Assembly: GCA_029931535.1 (NCBI GenBank)
Contig: JAQPZY010001610.1
Span: forward strand, 5,307,501-5,371,500
Source: Margaritifera margaritifera
Taxonomy: Eukaryota; Mollusca; Bivalvia; Unionida; Margaritiferidae
Reading direction: 5' to 3'
DNA length: 64,000 nt
Made by a program: the position numbers and the translations under genes. Shown here one piece after another: positions 23,046 to 52,610 of the stretch; position 1 is the first letter of the stretch, and every line of letters starts with the position of its first letter. Below the pieces are notes generated by a model. It was not told the DNA's origin. It made no database searches and saw only the letters and a list, made by a program, of their open reading frames with translations.

Positions 23046-23249
23046 TCGTGTTGGAATATCAGGAAACAAGTGCTCATAGTCATTGTTGTATATATGAAAG
23101 TTTCTGGTCTAGATTGTTCAATATTTCTAAATTCCGAAGATTGGTTATACCAGAGTCACTATAATCTGATTGTACTCCATCGTTGATATCTTCACTGTGT
23201 GGGACAGGTACAACTAAATTAACTGAATAATTAGCTGGGCTATCTCTGT

Positions 23250-24290
23250 CAAAATATTCCTTTAACATATTTATATGACAAAGTTGTGTCTATTTCCGTC
23301 TCCCAGGAGTGTTACTGATATAATTTAAGTCATTTACTTTCTTTTCAACGGTATAAGGACCATAAAATTTAGCCTGAAGAGGATTCTGAGGTATGGGCAA
23401 GAGAGCCAGAACTTTATCACCAGGTTTAAAACTCCTTTCCTGTGTATTTCTGTCATACCTTAATTTCATTTTTGACTAGGTTGTGTGAAGATTAGTTCTT
23501 GCTACTTCACAGTCCTTTGACAACTTGTATTTAAAATCAGAGACATAGTCAAGAAAATTAATCTTTGAATCTTCGTTTGAAAGAAGTTTCTCTTTCAATA
23601 ATTTCAATGGTCCACGGACAGTATGACCAAAAACTAGTTCAAAGGGACTAAAACCCAACGACTCTTGAACTGATTCCCTAACAGCAAACAACAACAAATG
23701 AACACCCTCATCCCAATCCTTTTCTGTATCAAAGCAATATGATCGAATCATATTCTTCAAAGTTTGATGAAATCTTTCCAAAGCACCTTGACTTTCAGGG
23801 TGATAGGCAGAAGATTTAAACTGTTGGATGCCTAATTCATGCATAACTTGTTGGAAAATTCCAGACATAAAATTTGACCCTTGATCCGACTGGACAGATT
23901 TGGGAAGACCAACAAGTGTAAAAACTTCACCAAAACTTTCACAATAGTTTTAGTTTTTATATTTCTCTGAGGAATTGCCTCTGGAAATCTTGTAGATGCA
24001 CACATAATGGTCAACAAGTATTGATTGCCTGACTTGGTCTTAGGTAGAGGACCAACACAGTCTACCATTATTCTACTAAATGGTTCATTAAATGCAGGAA
24101 TAGGTTGCAAATGAGCCTTTGGTATCTTCTGATTGGGTTTTCCTACCATTTGACAAGTGTGACAAGATCTGCAATATTTAGAAACATCACTTTTGAGTTT
24201 CGGCCAATAAAAATGATTCAACATCTTGTGATAAGTCTTACGGACTCCTAAATTACCAGCCAAAGGAGTTTCATGGGCTAGATTATGACT
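23250..24290 (-). pseudogene. Integrase of the LTR element, frameshifted
   Basis: The zinc-binding HHCC module is visible: His in AHETP, His in TYHKM, and CRSCHTC. The DDE core follows with its first Asp in DCVGPLP, its second in SDQGSNF and its Glu in ESQGALERF. The coding frame shifts by one register near 23,900, between the first and second catalytic Asp. The C-terminal part contains KFYGPYTVEKK, a GPY/F-like module, and ends near CHINMLKEYF. It lies between protease and RT rather than after RNase H, which is the unusual feature of this element class. Confidence 0.8.
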
Positions 24291-24633
24291 TTCCTGTCGA
24301 TATGACTAAGGAATAACAATTGGATAGCTCACTGACCACTCGTCACCAGCGGGTACCTCGGGTGGTCACCATTTCCTCATAAGGACCCCATATTTCACAA
24401 AGTAACACACTGGAACTTGTGTGGCTTCAGTTTCACTAATAGCCCTCTGAAACAAACAAGATATCTCGGGATCTTGCTCCTGTTCAACGACAAGGGATTG
24501 TCGTTTGTCACCCTGATTAGAACAAAGAGAATGAGTTGCCAAAAGAGGATGACTGAAAGCAATGTCGTTGGATTGATCATTACCTGAGGAAAAAGTGACC
24601 TCATCAAAAGACTAACCAATACATATGTGAGAG

Positions 24634-25950
24634 CTAATTGAATAATATCCTGATCAACATCACTCTAAAGAGCTCTTTTTGCCATAGCTCTAGTAACTGC
24701 ACAAGCAGGGTACAAATCAAAACTTTCTGATCCAAACAAGGCTTGTCAGTTACAAGTGGATTAACCACAACCTTATCTCCAGCTAGGTCATTGCCTAGTA
24801 ATAAATGAACACCCTCTATGGGTAAAGAAGTCACTACCCCAACAGTCACAGGTCCGGAAACTAAGTCTGATGCCAAATTTACACAATAAAGAGGAACAGT
24901 TACAAAGCCGCACTCTACTCCCTGAACAAGAACACTTTCACTTGAGGAAGACTCCTTAGACAAAGGCAAAGTACCTGATAATAAAAGACTCTGAGAAGCT
25001 CCAGTGTCCCTTAATATTTTAATTGGGATAGGCTTGACAGAATCACCAATAAGTGATAAAGAACCTTCTGACATGAATGGTTCATAAGCCTCCAAAATAG
25101 AATCAGACTGGGATTTGTTTGACAAAACAAATGTATTGCTTTTAATACAAGACCGTGACCTTAACCTCTTTGAAATAAGAGCATTCGGAAAAGCTCTGTC
25201 TTTACTCTGTTGCTTATTTTTCAACTTGAAGCAATCAGAAATAACGTGCCCTTTCCTTTTACAATAAGTGCAAGTAGGAAGAGATAAGGATTTCTGATCA
25301 GTCTTATCATATGTTTGATAGCTAACAGTTGTGCTGTTGTTAAATTTGGAAGTACTCGTATGAGATTGAAATGGTGTTTTACCAGAAAATTGCTGAGAGG
25401 ACGACTTATTGCTAAATGAAATTTTGTGAGTCAAGGAATAATCATCAGCCATACGAGCAGCATTTTCCAAAGTTTCTACATTCTGCTGGTCCAGATAGGT
25501 TTTAACATCACTACGGATGCACCTCTTGAACTCTTCAATTAATACAAGATGTCTGAGGTTATCATAATCTTGATCAACTTTCTTGGCTGAACACCACCTA
25601 TTAAATAGTTGTACTTTTTCCCTTGCAAATTCGACATGAGTTTGTCCGGTTTCATTTCTACAATTCCTAAACCTTTGTCGATATGCCAACTCATAAGCTT
25701 TCAAGATGTACTCCTTAACCACATCATAATCAGTGCTTTGTTGTACTGACAGGGAAGTGTAGACTTCACGAGCTTTACCAATAAGTACACTTTGTAATAA
25801 CAAAGTCCAATGCTCTCTGGGCCATTTCAAATTTTCAGCAATTTTCTCGAAATGAAGAAAGTATTTATCTACCTTTTTTTCCTGAAAAGGGGGTACTAAC
25901 CTAATATATCTAGTAACATCAACACCTGAAGTTGTGTTTAAAGGAGTGGA
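24634..25950 (-). pseudogene. Gag capsid, zinc knuckle and protease of the LTR element
   Basis: An open stretch of ~400 residues starts at 25,830; the likely frame extends upstream to ~25,930 without Met (VPPFQEKKVDKYFLHFEK). The capsid part (KWPREHW... through the RFRNCRN and VEFAREKVQLFNRWC segments) resembles the SCAN-like capsid of Gmr1 elements. A CCHC zinc knuckle, CTYCKRKGHVISDC, follows. The aspartic protease motif DTGA is at about 24,998-25,009, with the later LLGNDLAG strand. Gag and protease are in one frame here. The frame fails near 24,640, before integrase. Confidence 0.8.
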
Positions 25951-26508
25951 GTGTGCTCTGTTTGCCAGTTATAATTCTCTTAATTTAAATTGCATTTACC
26001 TTTATTCTCTTTCTCTCTCTCTCTCTCTGCATCTACCTCTACTCTCTCTCTCTCTCTCCATCTGCATCTACCTCTCCTCTTTCTGCATCTGTATCTGCTT
26101 CTCCTCTTTCTGCATCTGTATCTGCCTCTCTTCTTTCTCTCTATCCATCTGTATCTGCCTCTCTTCTTTCTCTCTCTCCATTTGCATCTGCCTCTCTTCT
26201 TTTTCTCTTTCTCTCTGAATCTGAAGCTTTGTCAATTCTAAATCCATCTGGTTCCTTAACTCTAATTCCCTTAATTTCCTATCAGAACCAGATACTTGCT
26301 TTCTCTTCAGACTGAAAGCACTATTATCCAAAATTCCCTTTCCTACTAAATATTGAATTAAAATAATCTTTATCTCCTGTTTTGTCAATGTTGCTTTCGC
26401 CTCAGACAGACTGTATTTTCTGGCAAGTTCGAGTAACTCATCCTTTCTCATACATTCTAACTTCTCCTGGGTAGGTTTTGAAATGAAATTCTGAACATTA
26501 GATGCCAT
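25950..26508 (-). pseudogene. Gag N-terminal region (coiled coil) of the LTR element
   Basis: Begins at a Met ~145 bases downstream of the primer site. The first ~65 residues are a basic, Leu-rich helical segment (MRKDELLELARKYSL, then KQEIKIILIQYL) that loosely resembles a SAP-type helix-turn-helix. Next come repeated REKEERQ(M/I)QM heptad-like units that read as a long charged coiled coil. The coding DNA of these units is the CT-rich stretch near 26,000-26,215. The frame closes at 26,068, so an indel separates it from the capsid region, and the copy is not functional as read. Confidence 0.65.
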
Positions 26509-26652
26509 TGTGAATGCTTGTTGGTTTCACACAAAAAATTTCTCTATTTAAAATCTTTCCCAAAGACAAAAAGAAAAAAAAAATTCCGAGACAAAATCAA
26601 TATGAATTTCAAAGATAATTTTAATATCTCTAATATTCTTTAAAGAAATTCT

Positions 26653-31374: not shown

Positions 31375-31757
31375 AAGGTCTCTCTTTCATCTTATGATGA
31401 TAAATTCTATTTAGTGGATAAAATAAACACATTTCCATATGGCTAATATTCCATCTTGTAATCAAATAGTAATTCACGTTGAATAAGGTTTCTCTTTCAT
31501 CTTATGATGATAAACACTATTTAGAGGATAACATAAATACATTTGCATATGGCTACTATTCCATCTTGTAATCAAATAGGAATTCGCTTCGAATGAGGAA
31601 TATCTTTCGTCTTATGATGATAAACGTTATTTAGTGGATAACATAAACACATTTCCATATTGCCATTATTCCATCTAATGATGATAAACGCTATTTAGTG
31701 GATAACATAAACACATTTCCATATGGCTACTATTCCATCTTATGATGATAAACGTCA
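31375..31757. repeat. Minisatellite with 110-bp and ~64-bp units
   Basis: Units start near 31,375, 31,485 and 31,595 (110 bp apart). Shorter units follow, with the landmark ATGATGATAAAC at 31,615, 31,679 and 31,742 (64 and 63 bp). The outer end of the palindrome falls inside this minisatellite. Confidence 0.75.
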
Positions 31758-32719
31758 TTTATTGAATAATATAACCTGGTTAAGTGTGTTGCATTTTCTA
31801 CATGCTCTAAATTTACACTGTCATCAATATTAAACAAAGTATAGGTTTATTAATAAAGTCCAATTAATAACATTAACCATTTATCTAATTGTTCACAATG
31901 ATCAAATAGTATTACATCATTGTCTTTATCTAACCATTTCCTATTAAAAGACTTGTCGTAAGTAAATGTTGGACAGAATAAAATCAAAGAATCCTTTATA
32001 TTATTTTTCTATTAAATCTCATGCATATATTATTTTTCCACAACTGGATACACTGCGCATTATCATATTATGAGGATATTGTAAATACGCTGTTCTAGAA
32101 CTTGCTGATTACCTTTCGATATTTAAATACCATTTAACAACTTTATCGTTTCATCCAAGACATCTGTAAAACCTTTACTTTATCAAGCATAATTAGTCCT
32201 ACTTTTATGTTTTAGAAACCAAAAATAATCTTCTTAGATAAATTGGTAGTGATTTAATTGTTGAGGGTTATGTTATGTTAACTTCAACACTTGCTAAAAT
32301 ATACAGTTCATAATTCATCGAATAAGAAAGAATATTATATCGATCTATGCTGGAACTTAGTCACGTTGCTCTCATTATATCCTAGATGCATAAAAGTAGT
32401 TAATATTATACATATTTAACGTGTTATTTATCTTCAGGGAAAGAGAATATAGCCATCTCAGTTAAGCTATATTTCCTCTGTCCGTCTGCATGAATGTCGG
32501 TTCGTTCTTAATCTGTCTGTCTGTCCGTAATTAATTTTGTTTCCGGGGCATAAATCTCAAAGCGTTAGAGGTATCTCTATACATCTTGGTACACATATTA
32601 AACTAGTGGTACAGACGTGTCTTTTGTTATTGACAGTTCTTAAATTTCACTATATTTACGCTTTGTCTGTTGTATCTCCATCACTCTATTAATTGTCCAA
32701 ATCTAAGAAAACCTATATT

Positions 32720-32913
32720 TTCATGCAGTAATTGACTGATTGGTTCACTGATTCATTGGATGAATGATTGCTTCAGTGACTGATACATTAGTTGATCCAT
32801 TCACATTATTCGCTTTATCATGCCGAGGAAATGAGAGTTAAATGCATTTCCCAAGGACACACCATGACCTTTGGATTACGAATCTAACGCTCTACCATCT
32901 GAACTACAGCAAC
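32720..32913 (-). mobile_element. tRNA-derived SINE, left arm
   Basis: Read on the minus strand, it starts with a tRNA-like head (TAGCTCAGATGGTAGAGC, an A-box-like segment) and an anticodon-arm-like TTCGTAATCCAAAGGTC. A degenerate B-box region and a CCTTGGGAAATGCACTTAA motif follow, as seen in many aquatic invertebrate SINEs, and the tail is ATTGATT-rich. It is not an intact tRNA because the 3' half does not fold into a T arm. Confidence 0.6.
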
Positions 32914-33411
32914 TCCCGAATATTGACGAGATTGATCGAAGTTTTTTTCCCTGAATTTGGTACAACACTTAAACACCTCGAGAAGTTATTAACTGATTTG
33001 GATGGAAGTTTCACTGTCAATTTTGCTCTTTATGTTTATTATATAAATATTTCTAAGCTTTAGTGTTCCGTGAAGAAACATTGAAGAGACTTCATAGTTA
33101 CTTGTTGGATTAACTATCCAATGTTTCCTGGCCATAAAATGGTAATTAGGAATTTCTGTTATAATGAGTACTTACCATTGTTCATCGTAAAGCTATGTTT
33201 CTCTTTCTGAAGTTGATTAACATCGTATATTACTTGCCTTGGATATTTTATTCCTTTATTGAACCTTATTTTTTTATTTTAAGTACATCTTATTTATTTA
33301 CTTCTTTTTTGTTTTTGTGTTGATTTGTTTTCTTCTTTTCTGCCGCTTGTGATGTTTGATAATTTATATGACTATATTTGTATGGGAAATTGCTTATCTT
33401 GTGAGAAATTG

Positions 33412-33518
33412 TCCCGGAGATATAGCCGTTCTGGTGAAGGTGGTGTTTTTGGCCACTTTTTCAAAGATGGGGAGAGGGAAAGCTCGACCCTCCGTGGAGA
33501 CCATACCCCTAGAAATTG
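33412..33518. other. 107-bp segment present only in the left arm
   Basis: Flanked by direct AGAAATTG repeats (33,404-33,411 and 33,511-33,518). The right arm, near 42,225, has a single AGAAATTG at this point. The segment is less AT-rich than its surroundings. The pattern fits a microhomology deletion in the right arm. Confidence 0.7.
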
Positions 33519-34001
33519 CAGCCCGACCTCTTTTACCTAATTAGCAAAATAAAATATGTTGAAACTAATTGATAACTAGAGAGATGGATAGATAGGTGTT
33601 AAGGTGTATAAGGTTAAATCTGTGTTGTGAGTACGTTAACATTTTTATAACGGTACATACTGCTAATAGTTACATACCTTTACAGTTTTGAATAATGTCT
33701 GTTAAAAGTCTAATTTATAAGAATGAACTTGTACGTCGTAAGGCAGTTTCAGTGTAGTTTCAAAGCATTTTCAGTGAAATTGGAACTTGATATTTCTAAA
33801 GTGTCAGTAAATTATTGGAAAGTAAGGTTTCTGCAGCTTGAAGCTCGAATAGACTACACAGAAAGTTCAGAGGAGGTACCATTATTTAGAAACTTGGCTG
33901 AAATCAGTGTTGTTTTCGTCCAGTTTCAATACTGCACGACCTCATTTTTCATGCAGTGATTGATTGATTGATCAATTAATTCATTCATTAAGTTAAACTC
34001 A

Positions 34002-34007
34002 TTTATT
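34002..34007 (-). terminator. Polyadenylation signal AATAAA, left gene
   Basis: TTTATT on the plus strand reads AATAAA on the minus strand, 120 bases beyond the stop codon at 34,127-34,129. Confidence 0.55.
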
Positions 34008-34126
34008 CATGTTTAAAACAAAACAGGTATATTTCAAATGTTTGACTATTTTTCTGGCTTGGATCCTATTTTGAGTTACGCGTCGAACTATATCTGGGCC
34101 TGGCGTCTCCGTTATATTTCTGCCAG

Positions 34127-34597
34127 CTATATCATTTTCTGATCGGCAATCCAATGATCGAACCCTTCCAAAAATTCAGACTGGATGATAGTCCCATCGG
34201 CTGAAATATATATATTCACCATGATGATGCAAAAGCGCTTGAAGGAATAGCGGATGTAAATAAATGATTTCCTGTCAAAATTACATAAAGAAACAACTCA
34301 AACAATGATAGTCATTAGAATAAAGTCAAAAAGAGAAATTGAGTACTATCACAACAACAACAACAACAACAACAATAAGAACTAATTCATGTAGTTAGAT
34401 GAGAACATTTTGACTTTATATCGATTGAGCTTTTGTTGTCACTATTACATCCAATGAATCTTCTAAACACATGACTTAATTAATTATCATGATATATATT
34501 TTATCATTTTATTCCTGCTGAGAAAAAACCCCAGTTAAATCTATTTAGGTTATATATCTAACAAAATAATAGCTGTTTGCTAGTGTGTATAAAGAAG

Positions 34598-34659
<62 letters not shown>

Positions 34660-35448
34660 ACGATAGAGAGAGAATATAAACATAAATTCTCTGTTCTACT
34701 CACAATCCAAATCAAATATGTGAAACCATCTCTTTAGGGTGCCGTCGTGCGCAAATTCAAAATCCTTGAACTTCAGTTGTTCTAGTACACGGTTTGAGAA
34801 ATTTAATTTCTTAAGGAAGGCACTCAATTCCCCCCTAGAGTAGATACCATCATCTAACAATGAAATAAAAAAAATTGTGGTTATATATCAGGTTCATTGT
34901 ATATTCATCAAAAGCAAGGTATCGTAACATCCATCCCAAAAGCAAATACTGAATGTAATTTACAGAATAGCTTTAGTTTGTAATGCAAATAGATACAATT
35001 GTTTCAAACGATTTTATAAATGAGGACCAAAATAGATTTATTACTGGTGGACTTATTTCGGGAAATAATAGAATAATATATGATATTTTATTTGAATAAA
35101 AAAGGAAGATATCACTGGTCTAATTTTGTCTATAGATTTTGAAAAGGCATTTGATACAGTTTAGTGAAAATTTATAAATAGAACTTTAAGATACTTTAGT
35201 TTTGTGGATTTAGTACTGAAATGGATAAAACTCTTTTATTAGGGAGGTAATTCGTGTATATTGCAAGAAGCATATATGTCAGTCTTTTAATCTGAAACAA
35301 GATTGTAGACAAGAAGACCCAAGTTCTCCATACGTATTTATTTTGAGTGTTGAGGTTCTTGGGAAAATGTTTCTTTCCATTTAAAAGGTCGAAAATAAAG
35401 GTAATACAGGTGTGTGTGATAGATGAATGGATTATGTAAGAAATAAAA

Positions 35449-35479
<31 letters not shown>

Positions 35480-37486
35480 CATACATACATACATACATAC
35501 ATACATACATACATACATACATACAGACATACATACATACATTAAACGATTTAAAAGGAGATATATAAGCCAATGGGAGGTTTTATAGAGAAAGTGAGAG
35601 ATAGAGGTATTCACCGTTTCTATCAAGCTCGGACGAAGCTTTCAGGAATTCACTTAATGTAACAGTATTGTCCTGTTTAATCTTATTATCCATTATTGAG
35701 AACATAACCCGCATTGCGTCATGATCTTGGTTTCGGAATAATGTTCTACTGCCGCTCAGCTGCTTGGTTCCTCCAAAACTAGATTATAACAGGAACAGCA
35801 AATATTATTGCTTTTTTTAGCTTTACTTGCATAAATACAATACCGTTTACAACTAATTTTATAAGGCTTCCATTGTTTCTAAGGGTATTGATCCTTAACG
35901 AATTTGAAGGTGATATTTAACGGAGTTATATGTCTTATTCAAAACTCGTTTTTGTATCACCCAATCAACTCTTTTGAAGGTTCTGTCAAGTGAATCTGAG
36001 AAAAAAGACTTTCTTGACTGGCACCATGACACATTTTTCAAGGCGTACGACTGGAAATGATTTAAAGCTATCAGAATCGTGATGACGCAAAAAGCAAAAC
36101 TGACTTTTAAAAAATAGAACAGAAAAAATACATTATGTAAGATATGGTGACAAGTTTATATATCATTTAATACAAAAAATCTATAATACACCCACATTTA
36201 TGTCTTATTATTTCATGCCTTAATTTATTTAATATAATTAAATGGCATTCCCTTCTAACATGCAAGAACTGGTGAATGATTAGAGTATTTACTGCTGTCG
36301 TGCAAAATGCAAACAATTGAAGGTTGAGGTTTGTAGTCAACATAACACATACACCTTTGCGCCTTGGGGAGGCTTTCAATACACTTGTTTTAGATAATGT
36401 CATTGCCTGTAGAAGGTTTTCTCCATCAGTTTAACCGCCAGGTGTCGTGAGCGTAAAATAGAACGATTACCCAGTTTTCGTCTGTTGATATGGGCAAGTA
36501 TTTATAGTTTTCCGTTCGAATGTAATTCTATTTATCTAATTTTGTAACCTGGAGATATTACTTATTTTCGTATTAAGAAACATCTGCGTGTTCGATGTTT
36601 TTGATGTACTGAGAGATAAAGGATTCTCAAACGTGGTTTCTTTTTAGCTTTGTAAACAATTTATTCTAAATATTTTGCGGGAAAATAAATATCTTATGAT
36701 TTAAATAAGCACCTAAATTAATCATCCATATCAAGTAAATTACTCTTCCTCATTGTTGATGATAGTCATATTGTATATGATATATAGGTACCGTGCGACA
36801 CAACTTCTGCATTATTTCCAACCGGTAACTGAGGACGCAAAAGAAGGATAACTATCCACAGAGAAGACTATTACTAAATCGTTAACAACTGCTCTGGAGC
36901 TTGATTCAAATATAATATATGACGCTTATTAAATATATATTTTCTAAACGGTGATTTAAGCTTTTCTCTTGTTTTTTTATAAGTCCTTTGATTACCAAAA
37001 AGAGCAATAAAATATCCCTTATAATTTTTGAACTTGTTTCATTTGTCAATGACAGATTATAGATAAGTAAGACAAATATTAATAATAGACAGAAAATTAA
37101 AAATATACACCACGATTGTTTCACAGCACATAAAGGACAAATATGTTATGAGGGCTTTAATAACAATTAATTTATTACAGTATGGATTAAAGTAAATTAC
37201 AATGCAAATATAACGACTAATGTCACGATTGTTTCTTCACTTAAGCTCGCACATATTTAGGTCGTATCAATTAATCCATGGAAAGAAAAGAAACAATGGA
37301 AGTAAACTTTTGAATAAAACAATGAATGAACTGTTTCTGTCATATATTCAACATCTGCCAATACTATCTAATTCTAAATTCGTTCAGTCTATTTTTGTTC
37401 CAGTATAAAATAACCTTTAAATACAGAAGAATTACTCACCTCACAAGGCACAGGCAGACCAATCCAAATAGCATCAAATACTTCAT
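34127..37486 (-). CDS. Secreted EF-hand calcium-binding protein, left-arm copy
   Basis: Four coding exons on the minus strand: 37440-37486, 35615-35778, 34704-34853 and 34127-34200, joined by GT..AG introns whose phases agree. The predicted protein is 144 residues. It starts with a hydrophobic signal peptide ([15 protein letters not shown]). A degenerate EF-hand-like loop lies around residues 46-59. Canonical loops follow at 68-79 ([12 protein letters not shown]) and 118-129 ([12 protein letters not shown]), both with Asp/Asn at 1, 3 and 5 and Glu at 12. Both good loops are completed only by splicing, which strongly supports the model. The exons I compared match the right copy except residue 82, Ala here and Gly there. 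An AATAAA lies at 34,002-34,007 downstream. I cannot name the subfamily; calcium binding in the secretory pathway or outside the cell is inferred. Confidence 0.85.
34351..34375. repeat. (CAA)n microsatellite, left arm
   Basis: Short trinucleotide run, mirrored at 41,361-41,385. Confidence 0.85.
34601..34655. repeat. (GA)n microsatellite, left arm
   Basis: Dinucleotide run in intron 3 of the left gene. The mirror (CT)n is at 41,087-41,135 and differs slightly in length. Confidence 0.9.
34960..35375 (+). pseudogene. Non-LTR (LINE) reverse transcriptase remnant, left arm
   Basis: The decayed frame retains [11 protein letters not shown], then [11 protein letters not shown], then [11 protein letters not shown], the RT block with the first catalytic Asp, and later a weak echo of the RQGDPxSPYxF block. 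Several stops and frameshifts are present. It lies in intron 2 of the EF-hand gene, antisense to it, so the gene tolerated the insertion. Confidence 0.75.
35452..35543. repeat. (ATAC)n microsatellite, left arm
   Basis: Tetranucleotide run in intron 2, with one ATACAGAC variant near its right end that is conserved in the mirror copy. Confidence 0.9.
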
Positions 37487-37777
37487 CTGCAAAATAAAAT
37501 GCATTATTTGAAGACAAAATATAATTGCATTGCATTTATTTACCTATGCGCCGTCCAACAAAATATTGATGAAAACAATAAACCTAGTTACATTAGAATG
37601 AGATAGGTTAATTAAACAAATTATCAGACCATGTTCATATTTGATGATGGCACGCTCACACATATACATACATACTTACCAGTATATACATCAATACATT
37701 TATTCATTTTTTTCAGACAATAGTACCGTATATATCTTGTGTAATTTTCTACATTTTAAATAATTCATCTAACTGTT

Positions 37778-37954
37778 ATATGTATACATACATAAATAAC
37801 AATACAATAAGAAATAAAGCATATATCAAAGAATGCAAGAAAAAATTAGAAATAGTCATGATGACAGATAAATATATAATAAATGTAATATAAATATATT
37901 TGTATTAAATATTCACTATGTGTTTCCCTATTGTGATATAACATTATTTACACA
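37778..37954. other. Palindrome spacer (177 bp)
   Basis: Unique AT-rich centre between the arms. The inner arm ends are AATTCATCTAACTGTT on the left and its reverse complement AACAGTTAGATGAATT on the right. It lies between two divergent start codons ~760 bp apart, so it could include or border promoter sequence for both genes. No clear promoter motif stands out. Confidence 0.85.
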
Positions 37955-38245
37955 AACAGTTAGATGAATTATTTAAAATGTAGAAAATTACACAAGATAT
38001 ATACGGTACTATTGTCTGAAAAAAATGAATAAATGTATTGATGTATATACTGGTAAGTATGTATGTATATGTGTGAGCGTGCCATCATCAAATATGAACA
38101 TGGTCTGATAATTTGTTTAATTAACCTATCTCATTCTAATGTAACTAGGTTTATTGTTTTCATCAATATTTTGTTGGACGGCGCATAGGTAAATAAATGC
38201 AATGCAATTATATTTTGTCTTCAAATAATGCATTTTATTTTGCAG
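37955..38245 (+). promoter_or_regulatory. Putative 5' UTR exon, intron and promoter region of right copy
   Basis: A donor CTG|GTAAGTAT at 38,053 and the acceptor TTTTGCAG just before the start codon define a possible ~193-base 5' intron. The leader exon and promoter would then lie between the palindrome spacer and 38,052. The mirror image (37,487-37,777) serves the left gene. This is inferred from splice signals only. Confidence 0.45.
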
Positions 38246-40262
38246 ATGAAGTATTTGATGCTATTTGGATTGGTCTGCCTGTGCCTTGTGAGGTGAGTAA
38301 TTCTTCTGTATTTAAAGGTTATTTTATACTGGAACAAAAATAGACTGAACGAATTTAGAATTAGATAGTATTGGCAGATGTTGAATATATGACAGAAACA
38401 GTTCATTCATTGTTTTATTCAAAAGTTTACTTCCATTGTTTCTTTTCTTTCCATGGATTAATTGATACGACCTAAATATGTGCGAGCTTAAGTGAAGAAA
38501 CAATCGTGACATTAGTCGTTATATTTGCATTGTAATTTACTTTAATCCATACTGTAATAAATTAATTGTTATTAAAGCCCTCATAACATATTTGTCCTTT
38601 ATGTGCTGTGAAACAATCGTGGTGTATATTTTTAATTTTCTGTCTATTATTAATATTTGTCTTACTTATCTATAATCTGTCATTGACAAATGAAACAAGT
38701 TCAAAAATTATAAGGGATATTTTATTGCTCTTTTTGGTAATCAAAGGACTTATAAAAAAACAAGAGAAAAGCTTAAATCGCCGTTTAGAAAATATATATA
38801 TTTAATAAGCGTCATATATTATATTTGAATCAAGCTCCAGAGCAGTTGTTAACGATTTAGTAATAGTCTTCTCTGTGGATAGTTATCCTTCTTTTGCGTC
38901 CTCAGTTACCGGTTGGAAATAATGCAGAAGTTGTGTCGCACGGTACCTATATATCATATACAATATGACTATCATCAACAATGAGGAAGAGTAATTTACT
39001 TGATATGGATGATTAATTTAGGTGCTTATTTAAATCATAAGATATTTATTTTCCCGCAAAATATTTAGAATAAATTGTTTACAAAGCTAAAAAGAAACCA
39101 CGTTTGAGAATCCTTTATCTCTCAGTACATCAAAAACATCGAACACGCAGATGTTTCTTAATACGAAAATAAGTAATATCTCCAGGTTACAAAATTAGAT
39201 AAATAGAATTACATTCGAACGGAAAACTATAAATACTTGCCCATATCAACAGACGAAAACTGGGTAATCGTTCTATTTTACGCTCACGACACCTGGCGGT
39301 TAAACTGATGGAGAAAACCTTCTACAGGCAATGACATTATCTAAAACAAGTGTATTGAAAGCCTCCCCAAGGCGCAAAGGTGTATGTGTTATGTTGACTA
39401 CAAACCTCAACCTTCAATTGTTTGCATTTTGCACGACAGCAGTAAATACTCTAATCATTCACCAGTTCTTGCATGTTAGAAGGGAATGCCATTTAATTAT
39501 ATTAAATAAATTAAGGCATGAAATAATAAGACATAAATGTGGGTGTATTATAGATTTTTTGTATTAAATGATATATAAACTTGTCACCATATCTTACATA
39601 ATGTATTTTTTCTGTTCTATTTTTTAAAAGTCAGTTTTGCTTTTTGCGTCATCACGATTCTGATAGCTTTAAATCATTTCCAGTCGTACGCCTTGAAAAA
39701 TGTGTCATGGTGCCAGTCAAGAAAGTCTTTTTTCTCAGATTCACTTGACAGAACCTTCAAAAGAGTTGATTGGGTGATACAAAAACGAGTTTTGAATAAG
39801 ACATATAACTCCGTTAAATATCACCTTCAAATTCGTTAAGGATCAATACCCTTAGAAACAATGGAAGCCTTATAAAATTAGTTGTAAACGGTATTGTATT
39901 TATGCAAGTAAAGCTAAAAAAAGCAATAATATTTGCTGTTCCTGTTATAATCTAGTTTTGGAGGAACCAAGCAGCTGAGCGGCAGTAGAACATTATTCCG
40001 AAACCAAGATCATGACGCAATGCGGGTTATGTTCTCAATAATGGATAATAAGATTAAACAGGACAATACTGTTACATTAAGTGAATTCCTGAAAGCTTCG
40101 TCCGAGCTTGATAGAAACGGTGAATACCTCTATCTCTCACTTTCTCTATAAAACCTCCCATTGGCTTATATATCTCCTTTTAAATCGTTTAATGTATGTA
40201 TGTATGTCTGTATGTATGTATGTATGTATGTATGTATGTATGTATGTATGTATGTATGTATG

Positions 40263-40293
<31 letters not shown>

Positions 40294-41082
40294 TTTTATT
40301 TCTTACATAATCCATTCATCTATCACACACACCTGTATTACCTTTATTTTCGACCTTTTAAATGGAAAGAAACATTTTCCCAAGAACCTCAACACTCAAA
40401 ATAAATACGTATGGAGAACTTGGGTCTTCTTGTCTACAATCTTGTTTCAGATTAAAAGACTGACATATATGCTTCTTGCAATATACACGAATTACCTCCC
40501 TAATAAAAGAGTTTTATCCATTTCAGTACTAAATCCACAAAACTAAAGTATCTTAAAGTTCTATTTATAAATTTTCACTAAACTGTATCAAATGCCTTTT
40601 CAAAATCTATAGACAAAATTAGACCAGTGATATCTTCCTTTTTTATTCAAATAAAATATCATATATTATTCTATTATTTCCCGAAATAAGTCCACCAGTA
40701 ATAAATCTATTTTGGTCCTCATTTATAAAATCGTTTGAAACAATTGTATCTATTTGCATTACAAACTAAAGCTATTCTGTAAATTACATTCAGTATTTGC
40801 TTTTGGGATGGATGTTACGATACCTTGCTTTTGATGAATATACAATGAACCTGATATATAACCACAATTTTTTTTATTTCATTGTTAGATGATGGTATCT
40901 ACTCTAGGGGGGAATTGAGTGGCTTCCTTAAGAAATTAAATTTCTCAAACCGTGTACTAGAACAACTGAAGTTCAAGGATTTTGAATTTGCGCACGACGG
41001 CACCCTAAAGAGATGGTTTCACATATTTGATTTGGATTGTGAGTAGAACAGAGAATTTATGTTTATATTCTCTCTCTATCGT

Positions 41083-41138
<56 letters not shown>

Positions 41139-41609
41139 CTTCTTTATACACACTAGCAAACAGCTATTATTTTGTTAGATATATAACCTAAATAGATTTA
41201 ACTGGGGTTTTTTCTCAGCAGGAATAAAATGATAAAATATATATCATGATAATTAATTAAGTCATGTGTTTAGAAGATTCATTGGATGTAATAGTGACAA
41301 CAAAAGCTCAATCGATATAAAGTCAAAATGTTCTCATCTAACTACATGAATTAGTTCTTATTGTTGTTGTTGTTGTTGTTGTTGTGATAGTACTCAATTT
41401 CTCTTTTTGACTTTATTCTAATGACTATCATTGTTTGAGTTGTTTCTTTATGTAATTTTGACAGGAAATCATTTATTTACATCCGCTATTCCTTCAAGCG
41501 CTTTTGCATCATCATGGTGAATATATATATTTCAGCCGATGGGACTATCATCCAGTCTGAATTTTTGGAAGGGTTCGATCATTGGATTGCCGATCAGAAA
41601 ATGATATAG
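38246..41609 (+). CDS. Secreted EF-hand calcium-binding protein, right-arm copy
   Basis: Coding exons 38246-38292, 39956-40119, 40889-41038 and 41536-41609. Donors are GTGAGT, GTGAAT and GTGAGT; acceptors are TCTAG, TTAG and TTTCAG. Split codons are AG|T, G|AT and T|CC. The protein is 144 residues with a signal peptide of ~16 residues and two canonical EF-hand loops at 68-79 and 118-129, each interrupted by an intron. A degenerate first hand spans about 46-59. The ATG follows directly on TTTTGCAG, so an upstream non-coding exon is likely; a GTAAGT donor at 38,053 would fit. AATAAA at 41,729-41,734 is 120 bases past the stop. Intron 2 holds an antisense LINE RT remnant and a (TATG)n run. The neighbouring copy is divergent and nearly identical. 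Family membership is firm; biological role is unknown. Confidence 0.87.
40192..40292. repeat. (TATG)n microsatellite, right arm
   Basis: Mirror of the left-arm run but about two units longer, as expected of independent slippage since duplication. Confidence 0.9.
40363..40778 (-). pseudogene. Non-LTR (LINE) reverse transcriptase remnant, right arm
   Basis: Mirror copy of the remnant in the left arm with the same stops, so the LINE inserted and decayed before the palindrome formed or was homogenised. Again antisense within intron 2. Confidence 0.75.
41087..41135. repeat. (CT)n microsatellite, right arm
   Basis: Mirror of the left-arm (GA)n run, about 6 bp shorter. Confidence 0.9.
41361..41385. 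repeat. (TTG)n microsatellite, right arm
   Basis: Mirror of the left-arm CAA run. Confidence 0.85.
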
Positions 41610-41728
41610 CTGGCAGAAATATAACGGAGACGCCAGGCCCAGATATAGTTCGACGCGTAACTCAAAATAGGATCCAAGCCAGAAAAATAGTCAAACATTT
41701 GAAATATACCTGTTTTGTTTTAAACATG

Positions 41729-41734
41729 AATAAA
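41729..41734 (+). terminator. Polyadenylation signal AATAAA, right gene
   Basis: Canonical AATAAA 120 bases after the TAG stop. The mirrored hexamer at 34,002-34,007 lies at the same distance from the left gene's stop. Confidence 0.55.
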
Positions 41735-42712
41735 TGAGTTTAACTTAATGAATGAATTAATTGATCAATCAATCAATCACTGCATGAAAAATGAGGTCGT
41801 GCAGTATTGAAACTGGACGAAAACAACACTGATTTCAGCCAAGTTTCTAAATAATGGTACCTCCTCTGAACTTTCTGTGTAGTCTATTCGAGCTTCAAGC
41901 TGCAGAAACCTTACTTTCCAATAATTTACTGACACTTTAGAAATAATAAGTTCTAATTTCACTGAAAATGCTTTGAAACTCCACTGAAACTGCCTTACGA
42001 CGTACAAGTTCATTCTTATAAATTAGACTTTTAACTTACATTATTCAAAACTGTAAAGGTATGTAACTATTAGCAGTATGTACCGTTATAAAAATGTTAA
42101 CGTACTCACAACACAGATTTAACCTTATACACCTTAACATCTATCTATCCATCTCTCTATTTATCAATTAGTTTCAACATATTTTATTTTGCTAATTATG
42201 CAAAAGAGGTCGGGCTGCAATTTCTCACAAGATAAGCAATTTCCCATGCAAATATAGTCATAGAAATTATCAAACATCACAAGCGGCAGAAAAGAAGAAA
42301 ACAAACCAACACAAAAACAAAAAAGAAGTAAATAAATAAGATGTACTTAAAATAAAAAAATAAGGTTCATAAAGGAATAAAATATCCAAGTCAAGTAATA
42401 TACGATGTTAATCAACTTCAGAAAGAGAAACATAGCTTTACGATGAACAATGGTAAGTACTCAGTATAACAGAAATTCCTAATTACCATTTTATGGCCAG
42501 GAAACATTGAATAGTTAATCCAACAAGTACCTATGAAGTCTCTTCAATGTTTCTTAACGGAACACTAAAGCTTAGAAATATTTATATAATAAACATAAAG
42601 AGCAAAATTGTCAGTGAAACTTCCATCCAAATCAGTTAATAACTTCTCGATGTGCTTAAGTTGTACAAAATTCAAGGAAACAAACTTCGATCAATCTCGT
42701 CAATATTCGGGA

Positions 42713-42905
42713 GTTGCTGTAGCTCAGATGGTAGAGCGTTAGATTCGTAATCCAAAGGTCATGGTGTGTCCTTGGGAAATGCACTTAACTCTCATTTCCT
42801 AGGCATGATAAAGCGAATAATGTGAATGGATCAACTAATGTATCAGTCACTGAAGCAATCATTCATCCAATCAATCAGTGAACCAATCAGTCAATTGCTG
42901 CATGA
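42713..42905 (+). mobile_element. tRNA-derived SINE, right arm
   Basis: Mirror copy of the left-arm SINE, with the A-box-like TAGCTCAGATGG near 42,719. It lies in the outer, more diverged part of the palindrome; several substitutions distinguish the two copies. Confidence 0.6.
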
Positions 42906-43948
42906 AAATTGAAGTTTTCTATGATTTGGACAATTAATAGAGTGATGGAGAAAAAACAGACAAAGCGTAAATATAGTGAAATTTAAGAACTGTCAATAAC
43001 AAAAGACACGTCTGTACCACTAGTTTAATATGTGTACCAAGATGTATAGAGATACCTCTAACGCAATGAGATTTATGCCCCGGAAACAATAATAATTACG
43101 GACAGACAGACAGATTAAGAACGAACCGACATTCATGCAGACGGACAGAGGGAATATAGCTTTAAATGAGATGGCTATATTCTCTTTCCCTGAGGATAAA
43201 TAACACGTTAAATATTTATAATATTAACTACTTTGATGCATATAGGATATAATGAGAGCAACGCGAGTAAGTTCCAGCATAGATCGATATACTATTCATT
43301 TTTATTCGATGATATATTAACTGTATAATTTAGCAAGTGTTGAAGTTAACATAAAATAACCCTCAACAATTAAATCACTACCAATTTATCTACGAAGATT
43401 ATTTTTGGTTTCTAAAACATAAAAGTAGGACTAATTATGCTTGATAAAGTAGAGGTTTTACAGATGTCTTGGATGAAAAGATAAAGTTGTTAAATGGTAT
43501 TTAAATATCGAAAGGTAATGAGCAAGTTCTAGAACAGCTTATTTACAAGATCCTCATAATATGATAATGTGCAGTGTATCCAGTTGTGGAAAAGTAATAT
43601 ATGCATGAGATTTAATAGAAAAATAATATAAAGGATTTTTTGATTTTATTCTGTCCAACATTTACTTACGACAAGTCTTTTAATAGGAAATGGTTAGATA
43701 AAGACAATGATGTAATACTATTTGATCATTGTGAACAATTAGATAAATGGTTAATGTTATTAATTGGAGTTGATCTATAACCCAATACTTTGTTTAATAT
43801 TGATGACAGCGGAAATTTAGAGCATGTAGAAAATGCAAGACACTTAACCAAGTTATATTATTCAATAAATGACGTTTATCATCATAAGATGGAATAGTAG
43901 CCATATGGAAATGGGGTTATGTTATCCACTAAATAGCGTTTATCATCG

Positions 43949-46900
43949 TGTGATGCTTTTAACTAGATCTGGAAAAGGTTTCGCATGTAAACTTTTATCA
44001 TCCGGACCATTTTTTAAATCTGATCTACACAAAATTGTGCATGCAAGGATACATCATCGAAGCGATGCTTTCAACCACATCAGGAAAAGAAATTGAATGT
44101 AAACTTCCTATGTGCGGACCAATTTTTTTATTCGATCCGGACAAAATTTGGGATACAAGGCTATATCATCTGGGCGATGCTTTTTAACCACATCCGGAAA
44201 GAAATCAAATGTAATTTTTTAATGTGCGGACCAATTTTTTTACCTGATCCAGACCAGATTTAGGATGCAAGGCTACATCATCCGGGCGATACCTTTTTTT
44301 ACCGCATCCAGAAAAGAAATCGAACGTAAACTTCCAATGTGCGGACTAATTTTTTTATCTGATCCGGTCAATATTTTGCATGCAAGGCTACATCATCAAG
44401 GCGATGCTTTTTTACCACACCCGGAAAGATGTCGAATGTAAACTTCCCATATGCGGATCAATTTCTTTATCTGATCCGGACAAGATTTGGCATGAAAGGC
44501 TATATCATCCGGATGATGCTTATTTAAAACATCTGGAAATGAGTCGAACATAAACTTCCAATGTGCGGAGCAATTTTTTGTATCTGATCTGGACAATATT
44601 TTGCATGCAAGGCTATGTCATCCTGGTGATGCTTTTAACCACACCTGGAAAAGAAATCCCACTTAAACTTCCATCATCCGGAGCATATGTGATAGAGGTG
44701 AAACCATACACCTGTGCCGCGAATCAATACGATTAACGATACACAGCTTACGATACGATACATTATCGATTCTCAGTTTAAAGAATGAGAAGGCAAACGA
44801 CAAATAATTATTCATGACTGCTGAAGATTAAAGTAACTTATATAGGATAGAGATCGTTTTGTATCGATTCTTCATCTCTTGTATCGATACGTATATCGAT
44901 ATGGCAAAAGTATCAATACATCGATATATCGATGAATCGTTTCACCCCTATGTGTGATACACTAGGATCTATCTGTAATACTGAGCTCTGCCTGGAACAC
45001 ATTTCCCATTCTAGCCAAAAGTAATAACAGGTTGTGACATAAGGTAACAAGGGGCCAGCGCACAAAATTCATCCTGTGTTTTTCACAAAAAAAAAATAAA
45101 TAAATAAATAAGTCCAATTTCTACTCTTTTCAGCCTGACCCTTTGTCATAGCCAAGTGAAGTACGTCCTCTTTCACAAATCTCAGCAGCGGACAGAGCGA
45201 GAATCTCTCGGAAACGGACGTTTTTTCTACCCCCATTTCAGGCTAAAGTTGTCAATAATGCCAGGGGAAAAAGCACTATCGTAAGTAGTAGGAGGAAAAG
45301 CAGTTCTAACACACCCAAAATGTTCCTGTTCCATTCTACGTGGGAGGGGGAGGGGGTAGTTGTATTTTAGTTTGATACATGACACTTAAAATAGCTGACC
45401 TATTTGTAATCTTCCATTTTCTGAGCCATATTTCGGACAAGATTCAGACAAGATTTTGCATACAAGCCTTCATTGCCAATGCGATGCTTTTAACTAGATC
45501 TGAAAAAGATTTCGCATGTAAACTTCCATCATCCGGACCATATTTTTAATCGGATCCACACAAAATTGTGCATGCAAGGCTACATCATCAAGGCGATGCT
45601 TTTTAACCACATCCGGAAAGAAATCGAATGTAAACTTCCTATGTGCAAACCAATTTTTTTATTCCATCCGGACAAAATTTGGCATGCAAGGCTATATCAT
45701 CTGGGCGATGCTTATTAACCACATCCGGAAAGAAATCGAATGTAACTTTTTAATGTGCGGACCAATTTTTTTACCTGATCCAGACCAGATTTTGGATGCA
45801 AGGCTACATCATCCGGGCGATGCTTTTTTACCACATCCAGAAAAGAAATCGAACGTAAACTTCCAATGTGCGGACTAATTTTTTTATCTGATCCGGTCAA
45901 TATTTTGCATGCAAGGCTACATCATCAAGGCTATGCTGTTTTACCATACCCGGAAAGATGTCGAATGTAATCTTCCCATATGCGGATCAATTTCTTTATC
46001 TGATCCGGACAAGATTTGGCATGAAAGACTATATCATCCGGATGATGCTTATTTACCATATTTGGAAATGAGTCGAACATAAACTTCCACTGGGCGGACC
46101 AAATTTTTTTAAATGATCTGGACAATATTTTGCATGCAAGGCTATGTCATCCTGGTGATGCTTTTAACCACACCTGGAAAAGAAATCCCACGTAAACTTC
46201 CATCACCCGGAGCATATGTGATAGGGGTGAAACCATACACCTGTCCCGCGTATCGATACGATTAACGATACACAACCTACGATACGATGCATTATCGATT
46301 CTCAGTTTAAAGAATAAGAAGGCAAACGACAAGTAATTATTCATGACTGCTGAAGATTAAAGTAACTTATATAGGATAGAGATCGTTTTGTATCGATTCT
46401 TCATCTCTTGTATCGATACGTATATCGATATGGCAAAAGTATCAATACATCGATATATCGATGAATCGTTTCACCCCTATATGTGATACACTAGGATCTA
46501 TCTGTAATACTGAGCTCAGCCTGGAAAACATTTCCCATTCTAGCCAAAAGTAATAACAGTTTTTGACTTAAGGTAACAAGGGGCCAGCGCACAAAATTCA
46601 TCCAATGTTTTTTTTTTTAAAAAAAAATAAATAAATAAGTCCAATTTCTACTCTTTTCGGCCTGACCCTTTGTCATAGCCAAGTGAAGTACGTCCTCTTT
46701 CACAAATCTCAGCAGCGGACAGAGCGAGAATCTCTCGGAAACGGACGTTTTTTCTACCCCCATTTCAGGCTAAAGTTGTCAATAATGCCAGGGGAAAAAG
46801 CACTATCGTAAGTAGTAGGAGGAAAGCAGTTCTAACACACCCAAAATGTTCCTGCTCCATTCTACGTTGGAGTGGGGTGGGGAGTGGGGGGGTAGTTGTA

Positions 46901-47331
46901 TTTTAGTTTGATACATGACACTTAAAATAGCTGACCTATTTGTAATCTTCCATTTTCTGAGCCATATTTCGGACAAGATTCGGACAAGATTTTGCATACA
47001 AGCCTTCATTGCCCATGCGATGCCTTTAACTAGATCTGGAAAAGGTTTCGCATGTTAACTTCCATCATCCGGACCATTTCTTAAATCTGATCCACACAAA
47101 ATTGTGCATGAAAGGATACATCATCGAAGCGATGCTTTCAACCACATCTGGAAAATAAATCGAATGTAAACTTCCTATGTGCGGACCAATTTTTTTATTC
47201 GATCCGGACAACATTTGGCATGCAAGGCTATATCATCCGGGCAATGCTTTTTAACCACATCCGGAAAGAAATCGAATGTAATGTTTTAATGTGCGGACCA
47301 TTTTTTTTTACCTGATCCAGACCAGATTTGT
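43949..47331. repeat. Satellite block 2 (diverged, ~3.4 kb)
   Basis: The same ~112-bp monomers, TATCGATA clusters (near 44,720-44,940 and 46,248-46,470) and conserved spacer as block 1, in the same orientation. Two spacers are present. This block is more diverged from block 1 units than those units are from each other; examples are extended AAATAAATA tracts and a G-rich GGGGTGGGGAGTGGGGG stretch near 46,875. It starts within a monomer at the palindrome end and stops within a monomer at 47,331. Confidence 0.92.
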
Positions 47332-47981
47332 TATTCTTCATTTATTTATTTATTTTTGAATTATGTCAAGTTTTGTATTTATAATTACTTATATCTGTTT
47401 TTACCTTTGTTCTTTTTAAAAATGCTAATGCGAATTTTATTTTCTCCATTGAGCATGCGCATTAAAATGTTCGTATTGCAATTCTACTGCCAGTCATGAC
47501 TTCATATAATCTGCTTCCTGTCTTTATAAATGTAATAAACTTTGACCTAAATATCTTGACGCTGGCAGCGATCTTGCATTTAAAAAGTCACTTGATATTT
47601 TATATCATAAATGCGTTTCAGGCCCACTCGACATTATATCAACATGGGAGCAAGGATGTGTGCTGGATTCAATGTTGATAACCCAAAATGGCACCCTAAT
47701 GTTAAATTCTAATATGTATCCCTTTCCAAACCACAATGTTAAATTCCCACAGACATCCATACCGACCCAATGTTAACCTTATAGATGATTTTTACGTTAG
47801 ATACCTACTTTGCCTCATACTTGGCCAAACCAATATGGTCGTATAATGATTTTCTTGCCCTTCCCCATACAGGCCCCCATCCCACATACTGCCCTTGTCC
47901 CCATAATTACTTGTGAAACAATTAGCTTATTTTCATTTATGTTATTTTCATATAATACAAAATATTAATGTTTTCTTCATA

Positions 47982-47986
<5 letters not shown>

Positions 47987-48046
<60 letters not shown>
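47987..48046. repeat. (AT)n microsatellite
   Basis: Dinucleotide run inside repeat family A copy 1. At the matching place copy 2 has a (TG)n-rich run near 52,065. Confidence 0.9.
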
Positions 48047-48055
<9 letters not shown>

Positions 48056-49033
48056 AGTAGCTAATTTCCTAACACGTAATACAGTTTGAGATTATTGCAC
48101 TTTCCATGAGGCAGACTAATGACAGATATAATAATTATTTTTATATGACTTACAACAAAAAGAAAGGCAAATGATTATTTTCATATAATTACCTGTAAGT
48201 CAATACAGCTTTAATGTGTTGAGCTTTTCATACATTCTTTCAGAATTAGAACTTTTGCCATGTAGGGCCAGATATTACTGTATTTATCCAATGATACATC
48301 GACCCTTCCATTTACAAAATTTTGCAAAACACCCTAGGCCTGTCATGGGAGAAATACATTATGCAACGGTTGTGATGAATTACTAAAGATCAAACCATGA
48401 AAAACCTACCCCTTTATGAGATAAATTGTGTCTGAACAAGGGGATGTGATGGTGATGGATGGTTCATAAAACCAAATATGTCATGGTTATCCTGCAGCGT
48501 GTATAGAAAAAAATATGGATTCATAAAATTATTATAAAATTTGTACTGGACAGTGATCACATAAATAAGCACGCGTTTTACTAATATATATAACACTGAT
48601 GATTGTGTTTTGTAGTCTTAGGGGGATTAATTATAATAAACCATTACCTGTTACTATGAAGTCCACTGCTAGATTTTATGCAACATTTAAGTGATATTTT
48701 TCAACAGACATGATCCTTGCCTTTCGTATTCAATTTGGGACTTGCATAACTCTCCTTTTAACTCTATGCTAATATTTGTACACCTGAAAAGTTTTATTAG
48801 TTTACTTAGATACCTAACGGGCAAATGTAGAATAGCCCTACATTTAACATTATTTGTGGCAAATACAGATTGGGAAGTAGACTAGAAGGTATTTATCCGG
48901 TTACGCAGGACTGTGAAACGATCTAAACTCGACAATAGATCGATTGTTTAAGGATCAGCTCTCAGGGACTAGACTTTGTCTGGGATTATTTAGAACTATC
49001 CCATCATCAAGTCTCTACACCGAGGCGAAATAA

Positions 49034-49035
<2 letters not shown>

Positions 49036-49100
<65 letters not shown>
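49036..49100. repeat. (AT)n microsatellite
   Basis: Dinucleotide run followed by a T-run. Confidence 0.9.
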
Positions 49101-51237: not shown

Positions 51238-52610
51238 CCCCAATCTGTATTTGTCACGACTCATATTAAATCTAGGGCTATTCTACATTTGCCCCTTAGG
51301 TATCTAAGTAAACTAATACAACTTTTCAGGTGTACAAATATTAGCATAGAGCTTAAAGAAGAGTTATGCAAGTTCCAAATTGAATACAAGAGGCAAGGAT
51401 CATGTATGTCGAATAATCTCACTTAAACTTTGCACAACATCTAGCGGTGCACGTCATAATAATAACAGGTAATGGTGTATTATAGTTCATCCCCATAAGA
51501 CTACAAAAGACGATCGTCAGTGTTAAATATATAAGTAAAACGTGTGCTTGGTCATGTAACCACTGTCCAATACAAATTTTATAATAATGATATTAACGCA
51601 TTATTGTTTGTCTATATATGCTGCTAGATAACCAGGACATATTTGTTTTTTTTTAACCATCCACCACCATAACATCCTCTAGTACACACAAAATGTATCT
51701 TAGAAAGGGTTAGTTTTTTATGATTTAATCTTTAGTAATTCATCACAATCGCTGCATAATGCATTTCTCCATGACAAACCTTGGGTGCTTCGCACAATGT
51801 TCTAAATGGAAGGGTGTGTGTATCATTGGATAAATACATTAATAATTGACAACACTTAGCAAAAACTAATTCTATGATAACGAATCAAAAGCTCTACACA
51901 TGCAAGCAGTATTAAGTTACAAGTTAATTTATGCGAGGAACAATTTGCCTTTCTTTTTGTAGTAAATCACATTCAAAAAAAATTATTGTGTCTGGCATTA
52001 GTCTGCTTCATGGAAAGCGCAATATTCTCAAGCTGTATTGCGTGTTAGGAAAATAATTACTTCTATGTGTGTGTGTGTTTGTGTGTGTGTGTATGTATAT
52101 ATAGCCATCTTGGTTTGGCCAAATATGGGACAAAATAGGTATATAACGTCACAATCATCTATACGGTTAACATTGGGGTCGGTTTGGATGTCTGTGGGAA
52201 TTTAACATTGTGGCTTGGTATAGGATACATATAAGAATTTAAAATTAGGGTGCCACTTTGGGGGTCCTATGGGAGATTAACATTAAATCCAACACACAGC
52301 CATACTACCATGTTGATATAATGTCGACTGGGCCTGAAACGCATTTATAATATAAAATATCACGTGACTTTTTAAATACAAGATCGCTGCCAGCGTCAAG
52401 ATATTTAGGTCAAAGGTTATGATATATCTGAAGACAGGAAGTAGATTTTATGATGTCATGACTGGCAGAAAAATTGCACAACGAATATTTGAATGTGCAT
52501 GCTCAATGGTAAAAATGCGCATAACCTATAAAAAATGAACAAATATAAACGCAGATATAATTAATTATAAATATAAAACTGGACGGAATTTTTAAAAAAG
52601 AATAATAGCA
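51238..52610 (-). repeat. Dispersed repeat family A, copy 2
   Basis: Reverse complement of 47,345-48,885 with numerous substitutions and indels. The two form an old inverted pair around ~2.3 kb of intervening DNA. The copy ends at CCCAATCTGTATT, short of the sequence that copies 1 and 3 continue into. Confidence 0.7.

Follow-up and report, generated by a model that had tools for sequence, protein, structure and literature searches.

In Drosophila, the palindromic paralog pairs Hsp70Aa/Ab and Amy-p/Amy-d undergo ectopic gene conversion (PMC3924832), and in abalone Hdh-SMP5 is a secreted EF-hand protein of the shell matrix (PMC10741955). The locus described here lies in a 64,000-nucleotide stretch of DNA (hereafter the window) from the freshwater pearl mussel, Margaritifera margaritifera, and is an imperfect palindrome that bears two copies of a predicted EF-hand gene, one in each arm. 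The window occupies positions 5307501-5371500 of contig C105 in its own assembly of 2,453,371,941 bases in 1,696 contigs; the M. margaritifera genome paper reports 2.45 Gb in 1,700 sequences (PMC10189783). The locus is probably a real inverted duplication with two head-to-head genes, a core homogenised by gene conversion, and exons that are diversifying across the gene family. A literature search found no description of this locus.

The palindrome and its two genes

Comparison of the window with itself delimits arms of 6,106 bp (left) and 6,001 bp (right) around a 177-bp spacer (Table 1). These coordinates bear out an earlier sequence-only reading of the window, which had proposed a palindrome of ~12.3 kb with arms of ~6.1 and ~6.0 kb and a 177-bp centre. 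The arm alignment holds 82 substitutions in total, one 107-bp segment that is present only in the left arm, and six small length differences (1, 2, 1, 6, 8, and 2 bp), the last three of which fall in microsatellite-like runs. No further copy of the 107-bp segment was found within the window. Arm divergence is uneven and shifts at position 33790 (change-point likelihood ratio 154), where outer arms differing at 80 of 2,119 sites (3.8%) give way to an inner core differing at 2 of 3,987 sites. The short spacer and near-identical inverted arms are the features of a gene-bearing conversion palindrome. Transitions make up a low share of the arm substitutions (26 of 82). Sequencing or assembly error was considered as the cause of this low share and rejected, as the seven other repeat pairs compared in the window have transitions to transversions from 30:57 to 69:69.

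Each arm holds a gene that reads outward from the centre and consists of four coding exons (47, 164, 150, and 74 bp) with exit phases 2, 1, and 1, GT..AG introns, and 144 codons followed by a stop. The four exons, matching splice phases, stop, and AATAAA that the sequence-only reading had listed could all be verified in the sequence of both arms. The predicted reading frame is open on both sides, and the two copies differ at a single codon, which encodes Ala on the left and Gly on the right. The GC content of the exons is 0.40, against 0.28-0.31 in the introns. The first AATAAA after the stop is at 34007 in the left arm and at 41729 in the right arm, so the predicted gene unit, if transcribed as modelled, lies wholly inside the homogenised core.

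Two repeat fragments were also seen in the arms. A stretch at 32800-32965, with its right-arm counterpart, resembles a short repeat derived from transfer RNA (tRNA), judged by eye, and a decayed fragment of a reverse transcriptase like that of long interspersed nuclear elements (LINEs), recognized by eye, lies at 34980-35440 and in the right-arm counterpart, within the intron that separates coding exons 2 and 3.

A gene conversion signature in the arms

A second palindrome is present on contig C625, where arms at ~99.7-110.7 and 137.4-147.9 kb surround a centre of ~27 kb. Four arms can thus be compared, here labelled L and R (the left and right arms of the window) and A and B (the arms of C625 on the satellite side and the array side). 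Site patterns were counted only in columns aligned in all four arms, and window positions 32399-32806, which have no counterpart in the stretch of B used, contribute none. In the core, 107 sites pair L with R and A with B, and neither alternative pairing (L with B and R with A, or L with A and R with B) is seen at any site. In the outer arms, no site pairs L with R, 15 sites pair L with B and R with A, and four pair L with A and R with B. Arms of the same locus are therefore closer to each other than to the matching arms of the sister locus in the core, whereas the opposite holds in the outer arm. The outer arms thus retain an older arm identity that has been lost from the core.

The comparison of R with A leads to the same boundary. 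Their noncoding divergence is 42 of 1,303 sites (3.2%) in the core part at 40373-41946 and 38 of 3,292 sites (1.15%) beyond it, as far as 45250 in the satellite. For this pair the change point is best placed at 41954 (likelihood ratio 24.9; positions 41486-42055 lie within 2 log units), which agrees with the independently found boundary between L and R at 41946. These patterns point to gene conversion in the core. Its simplest direction is left to right, as copying the left core onto the right would have given R the distance of L from A.

Except for an internal deletion, the spacer corresponds to the 5' flank of the copies on C625. It meets the left arm at a shared 4-bp TGTT. Together these fit the loss of an old centre by deletion, an order of events that the comparison suggests. 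Both C625 arms have ~4.7 kb of extra sequence between coding exons 2 and 3 (~103.3-108.0 and 140.1-144.7 kb) that is absent from the window.

Accelerated divergence of the exons

A search of the assembly with the predicted protein yielded at least 41 exon matches on 17 contigs, six of them the window's own, and an intron probe yielded at least 54 matches, two of them the window's own. Together with the second palindrome on C625, the exon matches support what the sequence-only reading had mentioned as a possibility, an amplified gene family. Contig C1079 has three gene copies in the same direction within the stretches examined, and two of them sit in segmental duplicates of ~94-97% identity.

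The exons of this family have changed faster than the DNA around them. Over the four exons, the right window copy and copy A of C625 (C625A) have a nonsynonymous divergence (dN) of 0.173, a synonymous divergence (dS) of 0.033, and a noncoding divergence of 0.033; nonsynonymous changes at 53.2 of 344.8 sites, against 115 of 3,529 noncoding sites, give P of about 1e-17. For the right window copy and C625B the corresponding values are 0.197, 0.059, and 0.031. Copies C1079_316 and C1592_46, compared over exons 2 and 3, have a dN of 0.148, a dS of 0.008, and a noncoding divergence of 0.035 (P = 2e-4 for nonsynonymous versus synonymous and 1e-9 for nonsynonymous versus noncoding). The dN/dS ratio is 5-8 and 19 in the strongest pairs and exceeds 1 in 32 of 37 pairwise rows, which represent the 36 pairs of nine copies (one pair is split over two rows), are non-independent, and in many cases cover exon 2 only. 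The noncoding distances of several rows that involve copy C1079_108 look inflated, probably through alignment across an insertion, and are not relied on.

Divergence profiles of six segments from three pairs give exon to noncoding ratios of 2.8-5.8. The paired exon and noncoding values are 0.100/0.036 and 0.161/0.028 for the right window copy and C625A, 0.130/0.041 and 0.099/0.021 for the C1079 pair, and 0.085/0.028 and 0.133/0.030 for C1592 and C1079_316. Synonymous and noncoding rates did not differ significantly in the four pairs tested, so the excess of exon change is nonsynonymous. The calcium-ligand columns have been spared: among six copies compared over exons 2-4, 6 of 8 ligand columns are invariant as opposed to 35 of 122 elsewhere (P = 0.012), and the majority residue occupies 46 of 48 ligand cells as opposed to 549 of 729 elsewhere. 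The splice sites of exons 3 and 4 are kept in the copies examined, and exon 2 acceptors are kept in eight of nine. Judged from these sequences, the exons are probably under strong diversifying selection across the family, with dN above both dS and the noncoding level and with the predicted ligand residues retained. This acceleration, which lay beyond the view of the sequence-only reading, is a more surprising result than the palindrome.

The predicted protein

The N-terminus of the 144-residue product is hydrophobic, with a hydropathy maximum from residue 5. By eye it resembles a signal peptide, as the sequence-only reading had claimed, and the product is probably secreted. The same reading had described two canonical EF-hand loops, each completed across an intron. 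The loops themselves stand: both (residues 68-79 and 118-129) have the customary ligands, with positions 1, 3, 5, and 12 kept, and each is split by a phase-1 intron that follows the first base of codon 4 of the loop. The word canonical fits less well, as neither loop matches the strict PROSITE EF-hand pattern, and a third, degenerate hand of 14 residues (46-59), N-terminal of the two loops, had been overlooked. A Pfam profile search with the predicted protein matched PF13405 (EF-hand_6) with 26.1 bits (cut-off 25), and matches to PF13499, PF13202, PF00036, and PF13833 were below their cut-offs. In the 4-kb core, three spliced EF-loop motifs occur on the gene strand (the two introns of the model and a join that skips exon 3) and none on the opposite strand. 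Of 200 first-order Markov simulations of the core, only one contained any. The protein may bind calcium.

The calculated isoelectric point (pI) is 5.8 for the whole protein and 5.5 from residue 17 onward, a part with 21 acidic and 17 basic residues. Neither the 144-residue product nor the exon-3 frame had a homologue in a protein collection in which spliced genes may be under-represented, and a search of the PDB gave generic EF-hand matches only (E 0.004 and weaker).

Alternative explanations

Several observations weigh against a simple account of the locus. All of the support comes from genomic sequence. In the outer arm, 61 sites separate L from B and equally many separate it from R, so a simple split does not describe the outer history, and the left flank is ~5% from C625. 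Correction or polishing of the assembly could have erased small differences between the arms. The divergence of C625A and C625B (dN 0.068, dS 0.026, noncoding 0.028 over four exons) is not significant for nonsynonymous versus synonymous change (P = 0.16), C1079_108 and C1079_316, on one contig, give a weak test (dN 0.144, dS 0.053, P = 0.03), and dN/dS is at most 1.0 in 5 of the 37 rows. Unlike the two open window copies, both genes of C625 are damaged or questionable: in C625B the start region is missing and exon 2 contains an in-frame TAG, and in C625A exon 2 is preceded by AT instead of AG. Part of the exon divergence between the window and C625 may therefore have arisen without constraint.

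This last point leads to the possibility that fast exon change reflects relaxed constraint in a decaying family, for which the broken C625B and the damaged acceptor of C625A would speak. Relaxation alone, however, would raise dN to the noncoding level and not to four to five times that level, the conserved splice sites and ligand residues described above are not those of a decaying family, and the pair with the highest ratio (C1079_316 and C1592_46) includes neither C625 copy; relaxation is thus a very unlikely explanation. The near-identity of the core could likewise have a cause other than conversion. Purifying selection on the protein cannot explain it, as the core is mostly intron and the introns are no less alike between the arms than the exons. 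Near-identity would also result if the core had recently undergone inverted duplication a second time, and both the direction and the number of events are suggested by the comparison and not seen in it, but the arms are collinear across the boundary at 33790; re-duplication and purifying selection, taken together, are considered unlikely.

The palindrome itself might be an artefact of fold-back, in which one arm was reverse-copied during library preparation or assembly. PacBio continuous long reads (CLR) can yield palindromic artefacts, although a literature search for long-read fold-backs listed no paper. The M. margaritifera assembly was made from CLR reads, with 14,339 bp given under insert size (PMC10189783). 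Fold-back does not predict the differences at 80 outer sites, the 107-bp segment, or the 15 arm-specific outer variants common to the matching C625 arm, and the outer arm/satellite junction recurs on C625 with ~1% divergence around it. The outer divergence of 3.8% and the recurrence of this junction make a fold-back unlikely, indeed highly improbable. Alternatively, two alleles or haplotypes could have been joined head to head, or C625 could be an allele of the window locus, as the copies on the two contigs are ~3% apart in noncoding DNA. Haplotypes of highly heterozygous molluscs can differ by about as much. The reported heterozygosity of M. margaritifera is only about 0.163% (PMC10189783), however, so differences of ~3% between the loci are unlikely to be allelic, and the centres differ (~27 kb on C625 and 177 bp in the window); an allelic origin is considered unlikely.

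Proposed history and significance

The preferred reading, an inverted duplication with a converted core, suggests a sequence of events. The inverted pair would predate the split of the window locus from its sister palindrome on C625. A central deletion (~27 kb relative to C625) may have brought the two start codons to within ~760 bp of each other, and a recent conversion, most simply from left to right, would have copied the ~4-kb core that holds the whole gene. Diversifying selection on the exons with the ligands kept could reflect an arms race or recognition role, or a fast-evolving secreted matrix. The likeliest role of the protein, going by its predicted features, is in extracellular conflict, recognition, or matrix.

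A more speculative and rather unlikely proposal is that the palindrome serves as a gene cassette, in which conversion between arms and between loci doubles a favoured variant, and that the family is a recognition or conflict system. If so, a whole, rapidly diversifying extracellular gene would be copied to the other arm, and a favoured variant doubled at once, while the outer arms and the satellite remain unchanged. The locus joins, in one animal, conversion that homogenises a gene pair with selection that diversifies the same family. For the question of when conversion helps or hinders adaptive change, C625 with its sister palindrome and C1079 with its direct copies offer a natural comparison, and the genes are candidates for a fast-evolving secreted family in the freshwater pearl mussel.

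Feature coordinates and surrounding sequence

Table 1. Features of the palindrome, in window coordinates.
Feature	Position	Strand	Basis
Left palindrome arm	31672..37777	+	Self-comparison of window
Diverged outer left arm (80/2,119 sites)	31672..33790	+	Arm alignment, change point
Segment of 107 bp in left arm only, flanked by copies of AGAAATTG (8-bp word)	33404..33510	+	Arm alignment
Left half of homogenised core (2 substitutions/3,987 bp versus right arm)	33791..37777	+	Arm alignment, change point
Left gene, first AATAAA after stop	34002..34007	-	Sequence
Left gene, coding exon 4 and stop	34127..34200	-	Gene model
Left gene, coding exon 3 (carries Ala of the Ala/Gly difference)	34704..34853	-	Gene model
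Left gene, coding exon 2	35615..35778	-	Gene model
Left gene, coding exon 1 (signal-like leader)	37440..37486	-	Gene model
Spacer, 177 bp, 19% GC	37778..37954	.	Sequence
Right palindrome arm	37955..43955	-	Self-comparison of window
Right half of homogenised core	37955..41946	-	Arm alignment, change point
Possible GTAAGT donor of a non-coding first exon (TATATA at 37998)	38053..38058	+	Inferred
Right gene, coding exon 1	38246..38292	+	Gene model
Right gene, coding exon 2	39956..40119	+	Gene model
Right gene, coding exon 3	40889..41038	+	Gene model
Right gene, coding exon 4 and stop	41536..41609	+	Gene model
Right gene, first AATAAA after stop	41729..41734	+	Sequence
Diverged outer right arm	41947..43955	-	Arm alignment, change point
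Outer right junction of arm and 112-bp satellite; 40 bases unchanged on C625 from near 99719	43936..43975	+	Comparison with C625

A 112-bp satellite occupies 1-22543 and 43952-47319 of the window. The left satellite block also repeats at ~12.42 kb, and two such units differ at 35 of 10,113 aligned sites. On the minus strand at 22489-26526 are fragments of a Gypsy-like retroelement (SCAN-type gag, integrase, and reverse transcriptase) in an unusual order, and its gag frame has 2,039 relatives. The two halves of an older inverted repeat (47346-49047 and 51239-52605, ~83% alike) enclose simple repeats. Partial copies of it lie at 61.4-64.0 kb, and it is perhaps a transposon family.

Pfam frame scans covered the window outside the satellite blocks and the right arm. 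The three minus-strand frames of 22.3-26.6 kb gave the retroelement domains, two of the six frames of the left arm gave two matches below cut-off, and six-frame scans of 26.5-31.4 and 47.3-64.0 kb gave no domain above cut-off and only low-scoring DUF3915. No Rfam match at the gathering threshold and no tRNA gene was found in the whole window.

Comparison with known systems

In venom and gamete-recognition gene families, exons evolve faster than introns. The mussel family is like these in that it would comprise small secreted proteins encoded by several copies with accelerated exons, and the likeness lies in these features. Among the published proteins found, the closest is abalone Hdh-SMP5, which, compared by description only, has a similar plan but is more acidic (PMC10741955). 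Hdh-SMP5 has 134 residues, a leader of ~16 residues, and three hands. The mussel protein, of 144 residues, may share this plan, with a leader recognised from hydropathy and by eye and a first hand that is degenerate. The spacings between the last glutamates of the hands are 20 and 56 in Hdh-SMP5 (derived from the printed hand positions) and 20 and 50 in the mussel protein. Hdh-SMP5 is Asp-rich with a pI of 4.31 (PMC10741955), whereas the calculated pI here is 5.5-5.8. The mussel protein, which is not strongly acidic and Asp-rich, is not assigned to SMP5.

The palindrome is like the Drosophila pairs in that tightly linked genes in mirror orientation are kept alike by conversion (PMC3924832). 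As described for Amy in the melanogaster group, homogenisation is confined to the coding sequence (PMC3924832), whereas in the mussel palindrome introns and flanks are included. Unlike those pairs, the exons of the wider gene family diverge unusually fast. The sex-chromosome palindromes described from mammals (PMC8981503) and willow (PMC7023750) also have gene-bearing arms whose near-identity is maintained by conversion, and the four-arm site-pattern test used here resembles one used in willow (PMC7023750). The resemblance is one of structure, and the mussel palindrome differs in having arms of only 6 kb.

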